From: Desulfoscipio geothermicus | GTDB lineage: Bacteria > Bacillota > Desulfotomaculia > Desulfotomaculales > Desulfallaceae | Assembly: GCA_016841905.1 (NCBI GenBank) | Contig: JAENYF010000015.1 | Span: forward strand, 1-60,891 | DNA length: 60,891 nt | Direction: 5' to 3' | Shown: piece after piece, positions 354 through 10,029 of the stretch | Position numbering within the stretch: position 1 is the stretch's first letter | Layout: each line of letters begins with the position of its first letter | Notes under the pieces: generated by a model | Told to the model about the DNA's origin: nothing | The model's input: only the letters and a program-made list of their open reading frames with translations | The model's database searches: none | Translations under genes and position numbers: made by a program

Positions 354-3290
354 GTGTCATATCTTAGAAATAAAAAAATGGCGTTTGTGCTAACCATAGC
401 GCTCATCTGCTGCTTTGTGTTTGCCGGCGCGGCATTTGCAGCAACAAACCTAACAGTTTATTCTGACAGCAAGAATCCTGCCACTGGAGAATACACTAAT
501 AATTTTAAAGCGGACCATGATTATTCCTTAAATATCGAACTAAATGACATCAGTGTACCGCTTAATAACTTCTGCAGCGATAAAAAACCTGCCGATGCAA
601 CGAATAAGTTATATGTTGATTTTGAGTTTGTTGACGAAGATTATAACTTTGACATTGCAAAAGACCAGGTAGTAAATGTGGTTTTAGACGTTAATGGTAC
701 TGATTACCTGGTGCGGGTAATTCCTGAAATTATGGAAGAGGAAGCCTGCGGTTCGGTAGCAGATAGGGTATACTTTACCATTGAAAGACAGAGAATTCCT
801 GTATCCGGTTTGAACGCGGTTGTTAACAATGTAAAGATCTCAGGTCTTAAAGTAACAACACCTAGTACGCCTGACGATAATTACAATGTATGTATTGGAC
901 ATACAAATGCAATGTGTGCTATCCAGGCTTGCACTAATGTTCGAGTAGTCGAAACCGTTGCTAAGATTGAACTGGATGCACCTGAAGGTTGCCTGTATGC
1001 CGGCAATGTGGTTCAGATAGGTGGTACGGTTTACAGCACCGAACCAGTTGAGTGTGGCAGTGATGAGCTTAAACCTTGGTCCCATACAACATGGCCGGTG
1101 GTTATTGAAATTATGCAAAAAATAACCGGTTACGATGATTGTGATAAAAAGGTAGTAACTTATAAGAATGCCATTAATCCTAGTGGTGAAAATGGAGTGG
1201 ACGAATGCGGTAATGTAACTTGCGTAGATCCTTGCGTTGGTGAGCCCATTGCTGCTGTAATCGCCCATACCGATTCAAATGGCGAATACAAAGCTTCTAT
1301 TAAGCTGCCGGCCTGCTTATACGATGAGGATGGCAATGCCATTGAATACATCGTCAGGGCTCGGACTATCGAAGTACAGGATGAAAATCTTGATGGAGCT
1401 GTTGAGTACTTCAATGATTATGTTGTATCAAAAGACTTTGTTCCTGCCGAAGCAATTGAAGACCTAGGCAATAAAAAAGAGTCCGCTGACCGCAACCATA
1501 TCAAGCGTTCTGTTGTAGCACCGGCTGCCAAAGCCCATGCCTGGTTGCAATCGGACGAAGATTTCATCAATATTATCCCTGGCGAACCTTGGACAATTAA
1601 AATGAGTGACCTCGGTCAGCAAATTGATTGTGATGGAATTTACCCGGTAACTATTTGCTTGACTGACAAGTATTGTAATGTAACCCCCAATATGGATCCT
1701 TGCGGTGAAAACCGTGAAGCTCTTAAAGTTGAATTAATCGCTCTTGTGGACGGTACCAAATCCATAGTAGCCGGCGAATTCTTTGATGCAGAATATGGCA
1801 ATAAGATTGTGTTTACAGAAATTCTGCCTGGTGAAGAATGTGTTACCGTATGGTTTAAACCCACTAAGACCGGTGTGATTAATCTTGAAGCTTCAGCCAT
1901 CATTGGTAACCAAAACAGGTTTGCCGGTGATTGCAACCTGGAAGTAAACTGTGACGATTGCTTACTCGAAGCCACTTACCTGGTTGTGGCGGATGGTTGC
2001 GAATTATTCGACTACAATCCTCCGATGGCAGGCTGGCCGGTAAAGGTTTCCGTGCACTATGAAGACGCAGGAGATCTGCGGGTTGAACTGTTAGATCCGG
2101 AAACCAGAGAAGCTGTTGAATGGGCAACTTGGGATACCATACTTTATAAGACCGGTTATAACTTAAACTATGATGCAGATGGCACAAAAGTAACCGGTGA
2201 CTACTTCACTCATCCCAATCTCACGGGTTATACACCGCTTAAGTCTGATTTCTACGTATATGTAGACGCTTGTGATGCCATTGGCAAATCGTTGATTGTA
2301 AAGATTGTTGACGAAGCCAACCGCGTTCATGATGAGATCTTGATTGGCGAATTTGTCACTCCGGTTGAATTGGTCCGCGCAATGGAACCCAATGGTTGGC
2401 AAATCCTGTCCACACCTAAGACATTGGCCGGTGACGGCAACATGAAATTCTTATTGGGTGTTGAACAAAACGCTGCTAATCCGTATTCCGACATTCTTAC
2501 TTTCAAGAATGGAGCATGGCAGCAGGTGTCTGACAGCGCTCAGCTGCAGCCGCTGGATGCATACTATGTGAACTTTAAGCAGAACTGGTGTGAAGATGTG
2601 TGCGTAGAGTGCTCTGGTGCTGAAAAGCCAATCTACGCTGCCTATGTATATGATCGCATTACCGACCCACGTGGATTGACTTTAACCACTAAGAACCTGC
2701 AACAGGGTTGGAACTTTGTAGGACCATCTTTCAATGAAGAAGAAATTTCTTATAAGGAAGCTTACACTTGGTTCTGCAGTATGGATGATTATTTCTATTA
2801 CGACCCCTGCGATGCAGTATGTGAAGAAAATGTTCCTACATTTGATGGACAGATTAACCCGTATATGCTGTTCCAAAATGACGCTTTGTACCGTATGCTA
2901 GGCGCTGCTTGTGCAGACTGCAAAGTAGTTATTAACCATGGTGGTTCCGGTTTAGAAGCAGCAACCTTCGATACAATGCCTGAATATGGAAACGAGTGGG
3001 TGGATATGTTCTACGGCGAAGAGTTAGGTGACCGGGAAGATGATACATTCTTCTTTGGCGACCCCAACACCTTGGCCAACCTGGCGCACTTCACCACTGC
3101 TGCTGTAAGTAACGGGACACAGCCTGCTTGGGCTAACGACCCGTACTACATGGCCTTCAATGGTGACGGTTACTGGGTATACGTTGCTAACTCTACTCAG
3201 CCGATTGTAGCGCAAGCTCAGCTGGAAATGCTTGAAAACGTTCAGGCACAGCCTATCCAGTTAATTCCTACTTTAAATGATGCTAAATAG
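354..3290 (+). CDS. large cysteine-rich secreted surface protein, function unknown
   Basis: This 978-residue exported protein starts at GTG, nine bases after AAAAGGAGGG. It has a signal peptide (about residues 1-29, ending AGAAFA). The mature part is acidic and contains about 30 cysteines, many in pairs such as NCDDC and EDVCVEC, so disulphides or metal binding are likely. The middle looks like a string of beta-sandwich modules. The C-terminal third has Trp/Gly motifs (NGWQILSTP, QGWNFVGPS, GDGYWVYVANS) seen in many cell-surface proteins. No SLH, CWB2, LPxTG or membrane anchor is visible, so how it stays on the cell is unclear. It heads a run of surface genes and may be an S-layer or matrix component. 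I do not recognise a family. Confidence 0.85.
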   Translation: MSYLRNKKMAFVLTIALICCFVFAGAAFAATNLTVYSDSKNPATGEYTNNFKADHDYSLNIELNDISVPLNNFCSDKKPADATNKLYVDFEFVDEDYNFDIAKDQVVNVVLDVNGTDYLVRVIPEIMEEEACGSVADRVYFTIERQRIPVSGLNAVVNNVKISGLKVTTPSTPDDNYNVCIGHTNAMCAIQACTNVRVVETVAKIELDAPEGCLYAGNVVQIGGTVYSTEPVECGSDELKPWSHTTWPVVIEIMQKITGYDDCDKKVVTYKNAINPSGENGVDECGNVTCVDPCVGEPIAAVIAHTDSNGEYKASIKLPACLYDEDGNAIEYIVRARTIEVQDENLDGAVEYFNDYVVSKDFVPAEAIEDLGNKKESADRNHIKRSVVAPAAKAHAWLQSDEDFINIIPGEPWTIKMSDLGQQIDCDGIYPVTICLTDKYCNVTPNMDPCGENREALKVELIALVDGTKSIVAGEFFDAEYGNKIVFTEILPGEECVTVWFKPTKTGVINLEASAIIGNQNRFAGDCNLEVNCDDCLLEATYLVVADGCELFDYNPPMAGWPVKVSVHYEDAGDLRVELLDPETREAVEWATWDTILYKTGYNLNYDADGTKVTGDYFTHPNLTGYTPLKSDFYVYVDACDAIGKSLIVKIVDEANRVHDEILIGEFVTPVELVRAMEPNGWQILSTPKTLAGDGNMKFLLGVEQNAANPYSDILTFKNGAWQQVSDSAQLQPLDAYYVNFKQNWCEDVCVECSGAEKPIYAAYVYDRITDPRGLTLTTKNLQQGWNFVGPSFNEEEISYKEAYTWFCSMDDYFYYDPCDAVCEENVPTFDGQINPYMLFQNDALYRMLGAACADCKVVINHGGSGLEAATFDTMPEYGNEWVDMFYGEELGDREDDTFFFGDPNTLANLAHFTTAAVSNGTQPAWANDPYYMAFNGDGYWVYVANSTQPIVAQAQLEMLENVQAQPIQLIPTLNDAK

Positions 3291-3339
3291 TTTGCGTTTT
3301 GATTGCTATTAAATTAATTGAACAATTAGTTTGCTTACC

Positions 3340-3373
3340 ATTACCTGCGAGGGCATTTGCTCTCGCAGGTAAT
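3340..3373 (+). terminator. stem-loop terminator after the cysteine-rich gene
   Basis: A perfect 12-bp inverted repeat (ATTACCTGCGAG at 3340-3351, CTCGCAGGTAAT at 3362-3373) lies 50 bp after the stop. The following bases are AT-rich but lack a clean T run, so it may be a terminator or an mRNA-end stabiliser that gives the first gene higher expression than those downstream. Confidence 0.6.
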
Positions 3374-3408
3374 ATTATTAAGCCAAAAACCTGATGGGAG
3401 GAAAGACC

Positions 3409-4407
3409 ATGCATAAACTACTGGCTAAAAGTTTCCTAATCACAGGTTTTCTACTATGTGTGTTTGTAGCTTTTAGCTGCCCGGCAATGGCCGAAAATGA
3501 GTCTGGGCAGCTTGACCCCGCACCACAATTTCCCGCCATATATTATGGTACTGTGATGGATAAGGATAGCCAAGCAATAAGTACAGGTATTATTAAAGCT
3601 TATGTCGAGGATGAACTTTGCGGTGAACTTCCCTTTAGTGCCGGTCAATATGGTATGCCTGCTGACGATGCTAATGTGAAAAGGTTGCTGGTGTACAGCG
3701 CAGAAGATTTAACCGACAAGGAAGTAACCTTTAAAGTGTTTATTGATAATCGTGCTTACCCGGCGATTACCGAACCCGAATCGGTTATTTGGAAAAGCAA
3801 AGATAAAATTCAGGTTAATTTAATTATAGAAAAGCCTTCAGATTCCTTGAATCCTTATTGGGATATGCAGGGTCACTGGGCCGGTGAGGTTGTGCGAGAA
3901 CTAGTAAACAAAGGTATCATCAGCGGCTATGAGGACAGTTCATTTAGACCGGATAATTTTATTACCCGCACTGAATGTGCTGCTATAGTTGCGCGCGCTC
4001 TGTCAATGCCCCCCGGGGATGTCGATCAACTAAATGAATTTGCAGATTGTAATGATATTCCTGCCTGGTCAAGAGGCAATATTGCTGCCGTGACAGAAGC
4101 AGGATATATTAACGGTTATTTAAGTGCTGATAATTCCAAAACATTTTTACCAAATAAACCCGTTACCAGAATCGAATTGGCAGTTATTTTAAGCAGGCTA
4201 TTAACAAGCGAGGAACAGACTCAGCAGGTGACAGTCCAAAGCTTTACCGACCAGGAAAAAATCCCCGTTTGGGCGCGGGAGGAAGTTGTAATTGCCGTAC
4301 AAAATGGGCTGGTGAGCGGCTACCCTGACGGAACCTTTCAACCGCAGCAAAATGTTACCCGTGCTGAGGCGGCCTCTATGATTTCACGTATGCTAGACAA
4401 TAAATAA
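3409..4407 (+). CDS. SLH-domain surface protein
   Basis: An exported 332-residue protein that should attach to the pyruvylated wall polymer. I choose ATG 3409 because GGGAGGAAAG (3396-3405) sits just upstream; the in-frame ATG at 3394 has no site. The order is a signal peptide (about 1-27, ending CPAMA), then a roughly 110-residue beta-rich module beginning IYYGTVMDKD, then three SLH repeats (about 150-332) with the motifs ITRTE, VTRIE and VTRAE. The N-terminal module resembles those of the next two genes. Homologous modules are common on surface proteins of this bacterial group; their role is not known. Confidence 0.9.
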   Translation: MHKLLAKSFLITGFLLCVFVAFSCPAMAENESGQLDPAPQFPAIYYGTVMDKDSQAISTGIIKAYVEDELCGELPFSAGQYGMPADDANVKRLLVYSAEDLTDKEVTFKVFIDNRAYPAITEPESVIWKSKDKIQVNLIIEKPSDSLNPYWDMQGHWAGEVVRELVNKGIISGYEDSSFRPDNFITRTECAAIVARALSMPPGDVDQLNEFADCNDIPAWSRGNIAAVTEAGYINGYLSADNSKTFLPNKPVTRIELAVILSRLLTSEEQTQQVTVQSFTDQEKIPVWAREEVVIAVQNGLVSGYPDGTFQPQQNVTRAEAASMISRMLDNK

Positions 4408-4467
4408 ACCTGGTTTGTCTTGCTTTGTGTAAACCGATCTATATTTTAAATTAAGGGGGAAATTACA

Positions 4468-5808
4468 GTGCGGCAAATTACTAAGGGACACTTGTGGATA
4501 GTAGCACTTGTTATGTTATTATCAATGGCGTTGGTGGCACCTGCTTTTGCAGCAGAAATGCCGGTGCTTCCCATGGGTGTACAAGGAACGGTGCAAAACA
4601 ACGATGGCACTACTATAACTAACGGCACAGTTAAAGTATATATCGATGGAAATGCTATCGAAGATGTGGCTATTAGCAAAGACGGTAAATTTACCGGGTT
4701 TTCCGCTGAAGTACCCAGGAGCGCAGTGGGGAAGGCAATAACCTTTAAAATAGAGGTTGTTGGTAAAGAATATGCGGCAACTTCTACACCTGAGCTGAAA
4801 TATCAGGAATTAGGCATGGTTGATAATGTTGTGGTTAAAGCCGACGAGCAGATTAACATTACTGCTGCTGGTGAGCCGGATGACCAAGATGAGCCAGATA
4901 ATGACTCGAGTACTAGTGGCAATGGCGGCGGAATTACCGCTCCCGCAGCACCGACGGCTAATCCAAAAGCCGGCAGTTATACAAATAATGTAGAGGTTGA
5001 ATTAGCAACTACTTCAAGCCAGGCTGAGATATACTATACCGTTGATGGTACAAGCCCTGAAACCAGTGCAACTAAACAAGAATATAGCGTAAAAGTTAAA
5101 ATTGAGAAAGATACCACTCTTAAAGCAGTTGCTTATAAAAACAATAAATACAGTTCCGTGACCGTATTTGATTATAAGATAACCACACCTGATACCCCTG
5201 ATACACCTGCTAAGCCAGATGTGCCAGATACAACAGTTGAGGTTAATTTTAATGACTTGCAAGGGCACTGGGCAGCCGGCGTTATCAATGAACTGGCGGG
5301 TCAAGGTATAATTAACGGCTATCAGGATAATACCTTTAAGCCTAATAACCTAATTTCACGGGTTGAATGTGCAGCGATTATTGTGCGCGCCCTGGATTTA
5401 ACCGGTGGTGACGTTAACGCGGTGAATTCGTTTAGCGATGCGTCTGAAGTACCAGCCTGGGCCAAGCAAATTGTCGCTTCGGCAGTGGAAGAGAATTTGT
5501 TAAAAGGCTATCCCGATACTAACGGGGCCACAAAATTTTTACCTAACAAACAGGTCACCCGAGTAGAATTGGCTGCTATAATGGAACGGGTATTAACTCA
5601 AAAACTAGGAGCGCAGCAGGCTGCCGAATTGAGTTTCAAAGATAAGGATAACGTACCTGCCTGGGCCAAGGGTGCTGTGGCGGTGGTTAGTCAAAAAGGG
5701 CTTGTGCAAGGTTATCCTGATGGAACCTTCATGCCTATGAAGGAAGTTAGCAGAGCGGAAGCAGCCGCTATGATTTCCAGACTGTTGGAAGCTGTTGGAA
5801 ATAATTAA
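4468..5808 (+). CDS. SLH-domain protein with chitobiase-C-like domain
   Basis: A 446-residue exported protein with a GTG start behind AAGGGGGAA. It has a signal peptide (about 1-29, ending VAPAFA), an N-terminal module (VQGTVQNNDG onward) related to those of its two neighbours, and a low-complexity Asp/Ser/Gly linker. A CHB_HEX_C_1-type immunoglobulin-like domain follows (about 155-230; signature IYYTVDGTSPE), then three SLH repeats (about 255-446; ISRVE, VTRVE, VSRAE). The CHB_HEX_C domain is a structural spacer in many surface proteins and does not imply chitinase activity. The next gene starts 18 bp after the stop, so they are probably cotranscribed. Confidence 0.9.
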   Translation: MRQITKGHLWIVALVMLLSMALVAPAFAAEMPVLPMGVQGTVQNNDGTTITNGTVKVYIDGNAIEDVAISKDGKFTGFSAEVPRSAVGKAITFKIEVVGKEYAATSTPELKYQELGMVDNVVVKADEQINITAAGEPDDQDEPDNDSSTSGNGGGITAPAAPTANPKAGSYTNNVEVELATTSSQAEIYYTVDGTSPETSATKQEYSVKVKIEKDTTLKAVAYKNNKYSSVTVFDYKITTPDTPDTPAKPDVPDTTVEVNFNDLQGHWAAGVINELAGQGIINGYQDNTFKPNNLISRVECAAIIVRALDLTGGDVNAVNSFSDASEVPAWAKQIVASAVEENLLKGYPDTNGATKFLPNKQVTRVELAAIMERVLTQKLGAQQAAELSFKDKDNVPAWAKGAVAVVSQKGLVQGYPDGTFMPMKEVSRAEAAAMISRLLEAVGNN

Positions 5809-5825
5809 TTTTGGAGGATACTTGT

Positions 5826-7313
5826 ATGGGAAAGTCAGGTAAGCGGATGGCGACTAAGTACCTAATTCCGATTTTGTTGGTTTCGTTTATTGCTATCTTT
5901 AGCTTTAGCAGTGCGGCATTTGCCGATGATCCGTTCCCGCTGTTCCCAGCTATGTTTTACGGGCATGTCCAAGATTTAAACGGTAATGCTGTAGCCTGGG
6001 ATGAGATCCAGGGCTGTGTTGGTGGTGAGTGCTATACATTAACGAAAACGGCCGTGGAGGTTTATGAACCTGGAAGCTATAAAGCCGGCGAGTATGGGCT
6101 GCCATGGGGTAAATATGAAAGACCAAAGAAATTGCAGATCGATGGCACTGCAGATGATAGCGGTAGGCTAATTACCTTCAAAGTTGTTGTAGCCGGTAAA
6201 ACCTATGGCGCCGTATCTTATGCCGAAGAATATGCGTATCAGACAGGTGTTAATTGGTATGAAGGTTTAGAACAACATGTTGATTTGCGGATAGATACAA
6301 CACCAACCCCCACAAATCATATAATCAGATTTGAAGGTGGTGTCAGAGTAGAAACGGCCGGAAATATTGCTTCATACCTTTTCCCAGAGGGTGTGAATAA
6401 AGTAGTCATAGCTGAAAGTCGTAAGATGGCGGACAGCATGATTGGTACCATCTTGGCCGGTGCATTAAATGCGCCTATACTGTTAGTTGATCTGCAAACC
6501 GATAAAACTCCTAGCCATTACAGTGTTTTAAAAGGCCAGATCGACAGCTTAAACCCAAGCGAAGCATATTTGCTTGGTGGCGAAACTGTAGTACCTGTAG
6601 AAATTTCTAACTATCTGCAGGACAAAGGTTGTACAGTTAAACGTGTCGCCGGTGATGACCGCTTCTTAACTGCAGTGGAAATAATTAAAGAAGTGAAGAA
6701 ACAAGGGAAGAATATTGGCACTACCCTTTATATCGCGAATGGTCGTGGGGAAACTGTTAATGGATTGATGACAGCTGCGGATGGTTATGCGTTGGCACCC
6801 AGTGCTGATGTTGCCAGTAATTTTAACCCGGTACTGCTGATCGATAAAAACTGGAACAATGCAGAAAAGGCAGCAAATGTAAACACATTAATCGATAATG
6901 CCGGGCTTAGCAATATTGATAAGTGTATTATTTTAGGCGATACAGACCAAGTACCTGAAGCAGTACAAACCGTCCTCACTGCTAAGCTAGGCAGCGAAAA
7001 GATCACCCGCGAAAAAGGTGACGTTTATACAGTCTCGGCAAGCCTCGCTGCGAAATATGCAGATGCTAACGATGCCTCAGATATCGTGATTGCCCGGGGT
7101 GATATATTAGCTGACGCGCTTTCCGGCGGTTTGCTGGCAGCCAAGCAAAACGCACCGGTCATCTTTGTGAATACAAATAGTATTCCAGTTGAAGCACGTG
7201 TAGCCATAAAATCGATAGTTAACAGAGATAGTGAAGCATTCGTACTGGGAAGCACTTCTGCGGTAAGCACTGCTGTAGCTGATGAAATTAATCAAATTAT
7301 CAACCAAAAATAG
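5826..7313 (+). CDS. surface protein with three CWB2 repeats
   Basis: An exported 495-residue protein. Start ATG 5826 follows TTTTGGAGG; an in-frame TTG at 5811 lies inside that ribosome site and is rejected. After the signal peptide (about 1-33) comes the same kind of N-terminal module as in the two SLH proteins (MFYGHVQDLNG). From about residue 168 there are three cell-wall-binding repeat 2 units (PF04122; RVETAGNIASYLF, RVAGDDRFLTAVEI, and a third). In Clostridioides difficile trimers of this domain bind the anionic polymer PSII. The repeat block is closely similar, also at the DNA level, to that of the gene at 8611, so the two are paralogues. Confidence 0.9.
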   Translation: MGKSGKRMATKYLIPILLVSFIAIFSFSSAAFADDPFPLFPAMFYGHVQDLNGNAVAWDEIQGCVGGECYTLTKTAVEVYEPGSYKAGEYGLPWGKYERPKKLQIDGTADDSGRLITFKVVVAGKTYGAVSYAEEYAYQTGVNWYEGLEQHVDLRIDTTPTPTNHIIRFEGGVRVETAGNIASYLFPEGVNKVVIAESRKMADSMIGTILAGALNAPILLVDLQTDKTPSHYSVLKGQIDSLNPSEAYLLGGETVVPVEISNYLQDKGCTVKRVAGDDRFLTAVEIIKEVKKQGKNIGTTLYIANGRGETVNGLMTAADGYALAPSADVASNFNPVLLIDKNWNNAEKAANVNTLIDNAGLSNIDKCIILGDTDQVPEAVQTVLTAKLGSEKITREKGDVYTVSASLAAKYADANDASDIVIARGDILADALSGGLLAAKQNAPVIFVNTNSIPVEARVAIKSIVNRDSEAFVLGSTSAVSTAVADEINQIINQK

Positions 7314-7392: not shown

Positions 7393-7417
7393 AGTACCGG
7401 GTAACTTACCCGGTACT
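7393..7417. other. strong short-loop hairpin upstream of the Ig-SLH gene
   Basis: AGTACCGGGTAA (7393-7404) and TTACCCGGTACT (7406-7417) form an almost perfect palindrome. It lies just before the TAGGTGA ribosome site of the gene at 7440. It could be a second terminator, a transcript 5' structure or a protein-binding dyad; no T run follows it. Confidence 0.45.
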
Positions 7418-7439
7418 TATCTGTAGGTGAACATAAATT

Positions 7440-8588
7440 ATGAAAAAAATAAAAAGTAAACCAATTAAGCTTTGCCTAATAACCTGTTTAATGGCTGCTC
7501 TAGCTATTACCTGTATGTTGACAAGCGCAGGAGGTGTCCTGGCGGCAGATAAACCAGGGGTAGTTGCTCAATACCCAATAGACAAGTCTGGGAACGTATC
7601 CGTTGACACAGCCGTCTACGTAACATTTAATTGTGACGTTGAAGCCAGCTATTTATTAGGTGTAAATATCCAGGGCAACGGTACGCAATTGCCTGGAGTT
7701 ATGGTGGCATTAAATGGACGAATGCTTAGCTTAAGTCATCCTGGGGATTTCGACTATGAGACTGAATATAAAGTAACGGTACCGGCCGGAAGCGTATTCA
7801 ATTATGTTTATAACGACGAGTATAACTGGAGTTTTGTCACTGAGCCGACAACCAATAACGATGATGATGACAACAATAATGGAAGCGGCGGCGGCTGAGG
7901 CTGCACAGACAGCGGCGGAGGTGGATCCTCCGAATCAAAACCAGCAGCAAATACATACGCGCCGGCCAAGGATGCTGATAATGCTAAACAGCAGGAACAA
8001 GTGGAACCGGGGTCAGAGCAAGTTCCAGGTATAAATCGCTTATTTACAGATGTGCAAAGCAATTATTGGGCGGCACAGATGATCGAACGGCTGAGCGAGC
8101 AAAATATTATTGCCGGTTACCCGGACAATACCTTTAAACCAAACAACAACATAACCAGAGCCGAATTTACCCGGATGCTTAGCCTGGCGCTGGGCCTGGA
8201 GCAAGTAACCACCGGCTCTCAATATAAAGATCTGATATCCGGTGCCTGGTATAGTGACAGTATTGCTGCTGCCAGCCATGCCGGTCTGGTTAAGGGCAAT
8301 AGTAACGGCGAGTTTAAGCCCAACGCGGAAATTACCAGGCAGGAAATTGTGGTTATTATGGCTAGAGCAATGCAAGATGAACCAATGAGCTTTGACGGTC
8401 AGAAAACCCTATTTATTGATGATGCAGATATTGCCTTCTGGGCTAAAGCCGGTGTAATAGCAGTCAGCCAAAAGGAACTGGTGGGCGGTTATCCAGACCG
8501 GACTTTTAAACCCAACAACAAAGCAACGAGAGCGGAAGCATGTGCTGTTATATCCAGGTATATGGATGATTTAGATACTCGGGAATAA
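7440..8588 (+). CDS. Ig-like SLH surface protein with in-frame TGA (candidate selenoprotein)
   Basis: The reading frame opened at ATG 7440 meets a single TGA at 7896-7898 and then runs open in the same frame to 8588, giving 382 codons including position 153. Order: signal peptide (about 1-35), SbsA/Big_5-type Ig-like domain (about 38-135), acidic Asn/Asp then Gly-rich linker, the TGA, Gly/Ser linker, and three SLH repeats (about 201-382; ITRAE, ITRQE, ATRAE). The codons after the TGA continue the same Gly/Ser linker and lead into intact SLH repeats. The local peptide would read GGG-U-GCTDSGG. A hairpin at 7916-7932 fits a bacterial SECIS. TGA ends other genes here, so it is not a general Trp codon. 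The alternative is a recent nonsense mutation. Confidence 0.75.
7916..7932 (+). promoter_or_regulatory. SECIS-like hairpin after the TGA at 7896
   Basis: CGGAGG (7916-7921) pairs perfectly with CCTCCG (7927-7932) around the 5-base loop TGGAT. The loop begins 23 bases after the TGA. The broad bacterial SECIS pattern, as I recall it, asks for a short stem, a small apical loop with a G in its first two bases, and a loop 16-37 bases from the TGA; this fits. The hairpin is also partly a by-product of Gly and Ser codons, so its meaning is not certain. Confidence 0.45.
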
Positions 8589-8610: not shown

Positions 8611-10029
8611 ATGGGCTTTTTAAAAAAGATGATTTGTTTTGTTGGCTGCTTAATACTGGTAATCTTGATCAGTGCCGGGATGCAAACGGGGACAGCAGAA
8701 GCCGGCTGAGGAAGTGATAGCACTCCACCGTCGGTTAGGAGCATAGATCCTGCAAACAATGCGGAGAATGTTGAAGTAGATAAACGAATAAATGTCATAT
8801 TTAGTGAAAGTATCGATCCAGACACAAATTATGACAATATTAGAGTTCTGCTGGATAACAATATTATTGAAATATCTACCTTGATTCTTGATAATGAACT
8901 AAATATTTATCCTGTCGGCGAATGGCCGAAGGGTGCGGAACTGACAGTTTATATTCCAGCTAAAGCAGTTAAGGATGCTAACTGTAACTCGTTAAAAATT
9001 CCTTTTTCTTCTACGTTTAAAACTATAACAGAAGATGTGAATGTCGTCAGGTTTGAAGGACTTACCAGAGTGGAAACGGCCGGTAATATAGCATCATACC
9101 TTTTCGGAAAAGATGCCGGTACAATAATTATCGCCGAAAGCCGTAAGATGGCGGACAGCATGATTGGTACGATACTGGCAGGTGCATTGGAAGCGCCAAT
9201 TCTGTTAGTAGATAAACGAACAGATCTTGATAATTATAGTATTTTAAAAGAACAAATTAATAATTTTGACACGTATATGGTATATCTATTGGGTGGAACA
9301 AGTGTAGTGCCTGAAGAAATTTCCACCTATCTACTGGAAAAAGGTTGTACAGTTAAACGCATCGCCGGTGATGACCGCTTTGCCACAGCAGTGGAAATAA
9401 TAAAAGAAGTAAAGAACCAAGGGAAGATTCTTGGCAGTACTCTTTATATCGCGAATGGCCGTGGCCAGGTCGATAGTAACGGATTAATGATGGCAGCGGA
9501 TGGTTATGCTTTAGCACCCAGCGCAGATGTTGCCGGTCATTTCAACCCGGTACTGCTGGTAGACAAAAAGTGGAATACTGAAACCACCGCATTAAAAGTC
9601 AATGAGTTAATTGATAATTCAGGGCTTAGCGAAATAACCAAATGCATTATTCTGGGTGATACAACTCAGGTACCCGAGGCGGTAGAAAACGCCCTGAAAA
9701 ATAAACTTAATGGTGCAGCGATCGACCGTATGGCAGGTGATGTATACACAGTTTCGGCAAACCTGGCGAAGGAGTATGCAGAAGCCAATGATGCAACAGA
9801 CGTCGTAATATCCCGGGGTGATGTATTAGCCGACGCTCTTGCAGGTGGTTCGCTGGCGGCCAAGCAAAATGCCCCGCTAATCTTTGTAGAAACAGATAAT
9901 ATTCCATCAGATGCAGCTGAAGCTATAGATTCAATAGTTAATGGGGGAAGTACGGCGTATATTTTAGGCAGTACCAGCGCTGTTAGCGATACCGTAGCTA
10001 ATGAGATAAAGAAATATAAAACAAACTAA
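8611..10029 (+). CDS. Ig-like CWB2 surface protein with in-frame TGA (candidate selenoprotein)
   Basis: The frame starts at ATG 8611 behind GTGAGGTG and is interrupted only by TGA 8707-8709 (codon 33), then runs open to 10029, 472 codons in all. Residues 1-31 are a clear signal peptide ending TAEA, so the mature protein would begin Gly-Sec-Gly-Ser if the TGA is decoded. Then come a Big_5/SbsA-type Ig-like domain (about 36-138; SIDPANNAENVEVD) and three CWB2 repeats (about 147-472). The 57 codons between the TGA and the next possible TTG start encode the first half of the Ig domain, so translation from an internal start would give a broken domain without a signal peptide. Readthrough, selenocysteine or a nonsense mutation remain the options. 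Confidence 0.75.
8723..8741 (+). promoter_or_regulatory. SECIS-like hairpin after the TGA at 8707
   Basis: CTCCACC (8723-8729) pairs with GGT and GGAG (8733-8735, 8738-8741) around the loop GTC, leaving a TA bulge on the 3' side. The loop starts 20 bases after the TGA and begins with G, as the loose bacterial SECIS consensus asks. The stem is short, so this is weaker evidence than the hairpin of the neighbouring gene. Confidence 0.35.

Follow-up and report, generated by a model that had tools for sequence, protein, structure and literature searches.

Two adjacent surface-protein genes of Desulfoscipio geothermicus with in-frame TGA codons are candidates for exported selenoproteins

INTRODUCTION

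Does the TGA codon that interrupts an otherwise intact surface-protein gene of Desulfoscipio geothermicus end translation, or does it encode selenocysteine (Sec)? The codon lies at positions 7896–7898 of the stretch of DNA analysed here (contig JAENYF010000015.1 of assembly GCA_016841905.1, forward strand, 60,891 nucleotides; hereafter 'the window'). A preliminary description of this DNA had proposed that a single frame, broken only by the TGA, encodes a signal peptide, an Ig-like domain, a linker and three S-layer homology (SLH) repeats; it had also noted a 6-bp hairpin with loop TGGAT, 17 bases past the TGA, and had read the codon as Sec.

Of the prokaryotic selenoprotein families in Table 1 of PMC9312934, 16 are verified and 71 predicted; many of the table's entries are redox enzymes or redox-type domains, and UGC motifs are described there in DUF1573 and in a Prx-like family. 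The nine new selenoprotein families named in PMC12013277 (deep-Sep) include none of the kind considered here.

RESULTS

A single TGA interrupts the frame of an SLH gene

The frame runs from an ATG at 7440 to a TAA at 8586–8588 with TGA 7896–7898 as its sole break, and the codons surrounding position 153 are GGC GGC GGC TGA GGC TGC. Reading of the open frame and Pfam matches bore out the domain order of the preliminary description (with the signal peptide assigned by eye), and the hairpin that it had noted was recovered exactly, at 7916–7932. The features of the gene are as follows.

7440–8588, + strand: SLH-anchored candidate selenoprotein, 382 amino acids when read through, with signal peptide, Big_5 domain, Gly-rich linker with putative Sec-Gly-Cys, and three SLH repeats
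7551–7841, + strand: Big_5 Ig-like domain of the SLH gene (PF13205, residues 38–134, E 3e-10)
7896–7898, + strand: in-frame TGA, putative Sec codon 153, followed by GGC and TGC (Cys 155); TGA or Cys is found in homologous linkers
7916–7932, + strand: 6-bp hairpin of the SLH gene (CGGAGG 7916–7921, loop TGGAT 7922–7926, CCTCCG 7927–7932), of SECIS-like geometry
8040–8573, + strand: three SLH repeats, limits approximate (PF00395, E 1.2e-41, three stretches)

Four more secreted-looking ORFs lie upstream on the same strand (window positions 354–7313), two of which encode SLH proteins. The large ORF at 354–3290 has no Pfam match, and the ORF at 5811–7313 is 68% identical to the second gene described below across its CWB2 part. 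Taken with the gene pair, these ORFs suggest a surface-layer gene cluster. One further element directly precedes the ribosome-binding site that serves the SLH gene.

7393–7420, no strand assigned: strong hairpin with an 11-bp perfect stem (-17.3 kcal/mol)

This hairpin was flagged as terminator-like on the minus strand, where such sites are no commoner than in shuffled sequences.

A neighbouring gene carries its own in-frame TGA

The gene that follows, overlooked in the preliminary description, begins 22 nt past the end of the SLH gene and contains exactly one in-frame TGA, immediately past its signal peptide.

8611–10029, + strand: second candidate selenoprotein, 472 amino acids when read through, with signal peptide, Gly-Sec-Gly at the predicted mature N-terminus, Big_5 domain and three CWB2 repeats
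8707–8709, + strand: in-frame TGA, putative Sec codon 33, within a Gly-Sec-Gly (GUG) motif that is invariant among the relatives found (seven genes in six genomes)
8723–8741, + strand: candidate SECIS hairpin, CTCCACC-[GTC]-GGT-ta-GGAG, its loop beginning 21 nt past the UGA
8983–8985, + strand: Cys codon 125 (TGT), in a Big_5 loop placed late in the domain from sequence; candidate partner of Sec33

The CWB2 repeats were matched in three stretches (PF04122, E 2.8e-39). Beyond its single in-frame TGA, neither window gene contains any lesion. Across both gene types and their relatives, Pfam detected Ig, SLH, CWB2 and dockerin domains, together with weak fn3, CopC and EF-hand matches; profile searches of the PDB returned weak matches (best E 0.023).

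The genome encodes selenocysteine machinery and uses TGA as a stop

The window genome is a draft of 3.08 Mb in 91 contigs, estimated as 93.2% complete. The preliminary description had named the Sec genes as a check on its reading of the TGA, and tRNA-Sec (68.6 bits), selB (362 bits) and, directly upstream of the latter, selA (613 bits) were all found. Three formate dehydrogenase alpha genes scoring above the family cut-off contain one in-frame TGA each. Since tRNA-Sec matches above the Rfam cut-off occur in 108 of the 113 genomes of the order (some of the weaker ones may be other tRNAs), presence of this tRNA does not discriminate among them. Genome-wide reassignment of TGA was rejected, as the codon terminates 8 of 42 other long ORFs in the window (non-overlapping, at least 150 amino acids, the fragment belonging to the finding itself set aside).

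Relatives of the second gene share a TGA immediately past the signal peptide

Relatives were sought in the 113 genomes of the order, with the N-terminal part of the second gene as query (matches in 47 of 113) and then with a six-row profile (75 of 113). Among the matches listed, at least seven, from six of the 113 genomes and three genera, contain one internal TGA at the GUG site, and in the profile search of all 113 genomes none of the matches listed contains an internal TAA or TAG. The carriers are the window genome, G092, G093, G094 and G095 (genus g49) and G098 (genus g35), the last with two copies. G092 and G095 are identical in both the GUG gene and its partner, so the distinct GUG sequences number six. 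All seven genes place the TGA within Gly-Sec-Gly directly past the signal peptide, and the GUG columns align in 21 of 21 sequence pairs. Among the matches read, none was a GUG protein with Cys throughout.

The distribution of these genes is patchy: within its family, the window genome is the only carrier of 16. A sample of 398 genomes of the phylum (E 1e-26) gave no additional TGA-containing member; the GUG genomes of g49 and g35 were absent from its matches, and we therefore take the sample not to include them. The domain that accompanies Big_5 differs, being a type I dockerin in the relatives and CWB2 in the window protein (by Pfam for three relatives and by alignment for the others; the dockerin match of L101 falls slightly below cut-off). 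By eye, cohesin-like stretches are visible in proteins of the window genome (G000:C8 and G000:C47; L096 and L100), which would fit with the dockerins of the relatives' GUG proteins.

Two candidates were set aside at this point. The single TGA of G099:C123 appears by eye to terminate its ORF in the ordinary way. A lipoprotein reading of the GUG site, in which Sec would replace the lipobox Cys, was rejected (again by eye) on the length of the stretch from hydrophobic core to Sec and on the Gly after Sec, invariant in six sequences.

The SLH partner gene of relatives carries TGA or Cys in its linker

The two gene types are adjacent in all six loci in which both can be read (window, G092, G095, G094 and G098 twice), and the partner contains a TGA in its Gly-rich linker in five genomes, with motifs UGC in the window, CSPU in G092 and G095, CGSPU in G094 and UGC in G098:C56. 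In genus g49 the SLH gene lies immediately upstream of the GUG gene and reads DDC-SP-U-SSGGG in G092 and G095 and NDC-GSP-U-SGGG in G094; in G093 the end of an SLH gene precedes the GUG gene, and the contig stops inside that upstream gene. The partner in G098:C56 follows the GUG gene, reads GG-U-GC-DSD in frame with Big_5, and leaves the contig at FSDLVGH, which we read as the probable start of an SLH repeat, Pfam detecting no SLH there. At the second G098 locus (G098:C78), SDCGCEGN stands in the SLH gene that precedes the GUG gene, giving Cys-Gly-Cys and no TGA. The linker motif therefore varies among homologues (UGC, CSPU, CGSPU and CGC). A codon alignment places the window TGA in the same column as the g49 TGAs and the TGT of G098:C78, the alignment being uncertain in these low-complexity linkers.

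Since relatives again have TGA or Cys in the corresponding Gly-rich linker of their partner gene, we regard TGA 7896–7898 as more than a chance occurrence. The suggestion made earlier that homologues should show Cys or TGA at this place holds for the partner-gene linkers (TGA, or Cys once) and fails for the best SLH match, G044, which has neither in the 170 residues ahead of its SLH repeats. Cys and TGA are both missing from the examined stretch ahead of the SLH repeats in three further SLH matches, and the high-scoring SLH matches G004, G049 and G040 have a single Cys each in a Gly-rich linker. No internal TGA was found in the other SLH matches listed, which align chiefly over the SLH part. 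One pattern, which missed the window's own linker, collected 28 Gly-rich segments from SLH ORFs; 22 of them have neither Cys nor TGA.

Across the order, the pattern RGN GGN GGN TGA GGN TGY matched 47 times, in 37 of 113 genomes, against 15 for the same pattern reversed as a control. On reading of all 47, an SLH-like frame is present only in the window and G098:C56, and the remaining matches were judged from their open frames to be chance. The contig of G098:C56 that contains the GUG and UGC genes also has, on its minus strand, an ORF that appears by eye to be formate-dehydrogenase-like (L226, TGA at 6307, DHCARLUHAPT).

Purifying selection past the TGA in relatives

For GUG pairs within genus g49, dN/dS past the TGA is 0.19 (G093/G092), 0.18 (G093/G094) and 0.25 (G092/G094); the two G098 GUG copies give 0.20, and the SLH pair G095/G094 gives 0.19. 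Pairs of the window GUG gene with relatives gave 0.30–0.41 or no value, with synonymous sites near saturation and CWB2 aligned against dockerin. These ratios indicate that translation continues beyond the TGA in the relatives; for the window we infer it from the intact frame and domains.

SECIS-like hairpins at the TGA sites do not stand out from controls

Hairpins were scored by the geometric criteria of the bacterial SECIS literature, as a loop starting 20–33 nt past the UGA with a G in one of its first two positions. Such a hairpin is found at 10 of 10 distinct sites (-5.8 to -13.8 kcal/mol), and the three formate dehydrogenase sites have hairpins of -8.9 to -10.9 kcal/mol. In the SLH gene the loop begins 24 nt past the UGA with G at loop position 2, and 13–14% of synonymous recodings fold as well or better, so that this hairpin by itself does not exceed chance; in the second gene, an alternative scoring favours a different hairpin with its loop at 32 nt. 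Mean raw hairpin energy is approximately -9.2 kcal/mol, versus -6.4 in TGA-free controls of wide spread. In synonymous-recoding tests of low power, in which codon usage of the window genes was applied to all genomes and so biases the controls, mean z is approximately -1.6 for the candidates and -1.43 for 18 TGA-free Big_5 controls, and lies between -0.3 and -1.4 for the three formate dehydrogenase sites. Covariation is weak in a consensus fold built from the GUG sites, with one compensatory pair and a covariation term that is unfavourable. The hairpins fit Sec decoding yet do not stand out from controls, and are consistent with it without being decisive.

A cysteine in a late Big_5 loop is shared by the GUG proteins and rare in other Big_5 domains

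Aligned Big_5 domains show a Cys in a late loop, as placed from sequence, in each of the six distinct GUG proteins and in 3 of 126 others (seven more did not cover the position). The residue follows AVK[DG], at a point where the usual sequence elsewhere is AGN. Widening the loop window brings the count among other Big_5 domains to 6 of 123. When Cys immediately ahead of the domain was scored together with Cys in the loop, two other Big_5 domains have both, three only the N-side residue, four only the loop residue and 114 neither, with 12 unreadable (Fisher p 0.019, resting on two cases). The two with both belong to SLH proteins of G040 and of G004, a member of the window's genus. The pattern is a hint that Big_5 proteins may form an intramolecular Sec-Cys or Cys-Cys pair.

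DISCUSSION

The reading of the SLH-gene TGA as Sec, put forward in the preliminary description, is supported by the Sec genes of the organism, by TGA or Cys in the partner-gene linkers of relatives and by recurrence across genera, and we consider it very probable that both window TGAs are Sec codons. Pseudogenes, miscalled bases and an ordinary leaky stop were rejected chiefly on conservation. Nonsense mutations in decaying genes or base-calling errors might be suspected in a draft of 91 contigs whose relatives include several drafts or metagenome assemblies; the same TGA column nevertheless recurs in seven genes of six genomes with purifying selection downstream where measurable, the two window genes have no other lesion, and the presence of TGAs at matching positions in two further genera makes a sequencing error implausible, so that we give this explanation almost no weight. 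Low-level read-through by an ordinary tRNA, yielding mostly a short product and rarely the long one, could draw on the context GGN TGA GG common to both window sites, all GUG sites and the linker site of G098:C56. At the g49 linker sites the context is TGA AGC or AGT instead, one homologue has Cys in place of TGA, neither TAA nor TAG was seen at these sites, and a truncated GUG product would be barely more than a signal peptide; leaky termination is accordingly very unlikely, if somewhat less so than decay or error.

The explanation that we favour overall, and think probable, is that the locus encodes an adjacent pair of exported, wall-attached selenoproteins that would display Sec-Cys redox centres. 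The ribosome would insert Sec at both TGAs, and SLH and CWB2 repeats, or in relatives a dockerin, would anchor the two exported proteins to the wall. The SLH protein would hold its Sec-Gly-Cys pair within a flexible Gly-rich linker, and the Big_5-CWB2 protein would begin, once mature, with Gly-Sec-Gly and find its partner Cys in the late Ig-like loop. Each would thus expose a selenenylsulphide/selenol-thiol centre outside the anaerobic cell, where it might reduce or isomerise disulphides, scavenge oxidants or exchange electrons with the other protein. Taken as a separate claim, a redox role for the Sec sites stands at about even chances on the sequences at hand. A still broader proposal, in which the wall-anchored SLH protein and its N-terminal Gly-Sec-Gly partner constitute an extracellular system of the Gram-positive surface layer dedicated to selenium, acting as a selenol/disulphide relay or through selenium cross-links that keep the layer together, is tentative and in our judgement somewhat doubtful. 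On that proposal, Sec would be used by structural proteins of the surface in which no enzyme domain is recognised.

Sec might instead be structural, with selenenylsulphide or diselenide cross-links that would fasten the GUG protein onto its SLH partner within the surface layer. Adjacency of the two gene types in the six readable loci, with an SLH gene end upstream in a seventh (G093), would suit such a role, as would a domain content confined to Ig, SLH, CWB2 and dockerin plus the weak matches listed above, and the placement of one Sec in a Gly-rich stretch and the other close to the chain end; each protein has a candidate Cys partner of its own, though, which fits an intramolecular pair, and we regard cross-linking as unlikely while still the strongest of the competing accounts. 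Binding of soft metals or metalloids on the outside of the cell, in place of redox exchange, is improbable. Exposed Sec and Cys in Gly-rich linkers could by general chemistry serve as soft ligands, but a single Sec paired with a single Cys is the arrangement typical of redox sites, and no obvious metal gene lies beside the pair among the neighbouring ORFs examined, some of which were annotated. Relative to both of these roles, the exposed Sec-Cys redox pair remains the reading that we prefer.

The candidates resemble known UGC or UxC/CxU selenoproteins (DUF1573, the UGC-containing Prx-like family and thioredoxin-like Sec.1/Sec.2 of PMC9312934) in having a putative Sec one residue from a Cys and SelA/SelB-type machinery. 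They differ in setting: the entries described there are DUF1573, AhpC-TSA and thioredoxin proteins, whereas here the site is in a Gly-rich linker or at the predicted mature N-terminus of Big_5, SLH, CWB2 or dockerin proteins. Neither Table 1 of PMC9312934 nor the nine families of PMC12013277 contains an SLH, Big_5, CWB2 or dockerin entry in a comparison by named domain, which several entries lack. NCBIfam scans matched no selenoprotein model to the two proteins, and none of the titles and abstract openings listed in searches of the open-licence literature describes such surface selenoproteins.

In their signal peptide, Ig-like Big_5 domain and three SLH or CWB2 repeats, the two products are like other wall-anchored SLH (PF00395) and CWB2 (PF04122) proteins; unlike the other SLH matches listed, which have no internal TGA, the window gene has one. 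A CXC motif was reportedly described by Woycechowsky and Raines in 2003 (cited in PMC4316792) as a mimic of protein disulphide isomerase. Of such a motif, the Cys-Gly-Cys of one homologue would represent the Cys version and the putative Sec-Gly-Cys of the window the Sec version; other homologues differ from it in having CSPU or CGSPU.

The recurring TGA sites in relatives point to selenoproteins that are absent from the lists compared here and that would be located outside the cell. If this is correct, standard translation (table 11) truncates such surface proteins at the TGA, and selenium chemistry would be in use on the exterior of anaerobic Gram-positive bacteria.
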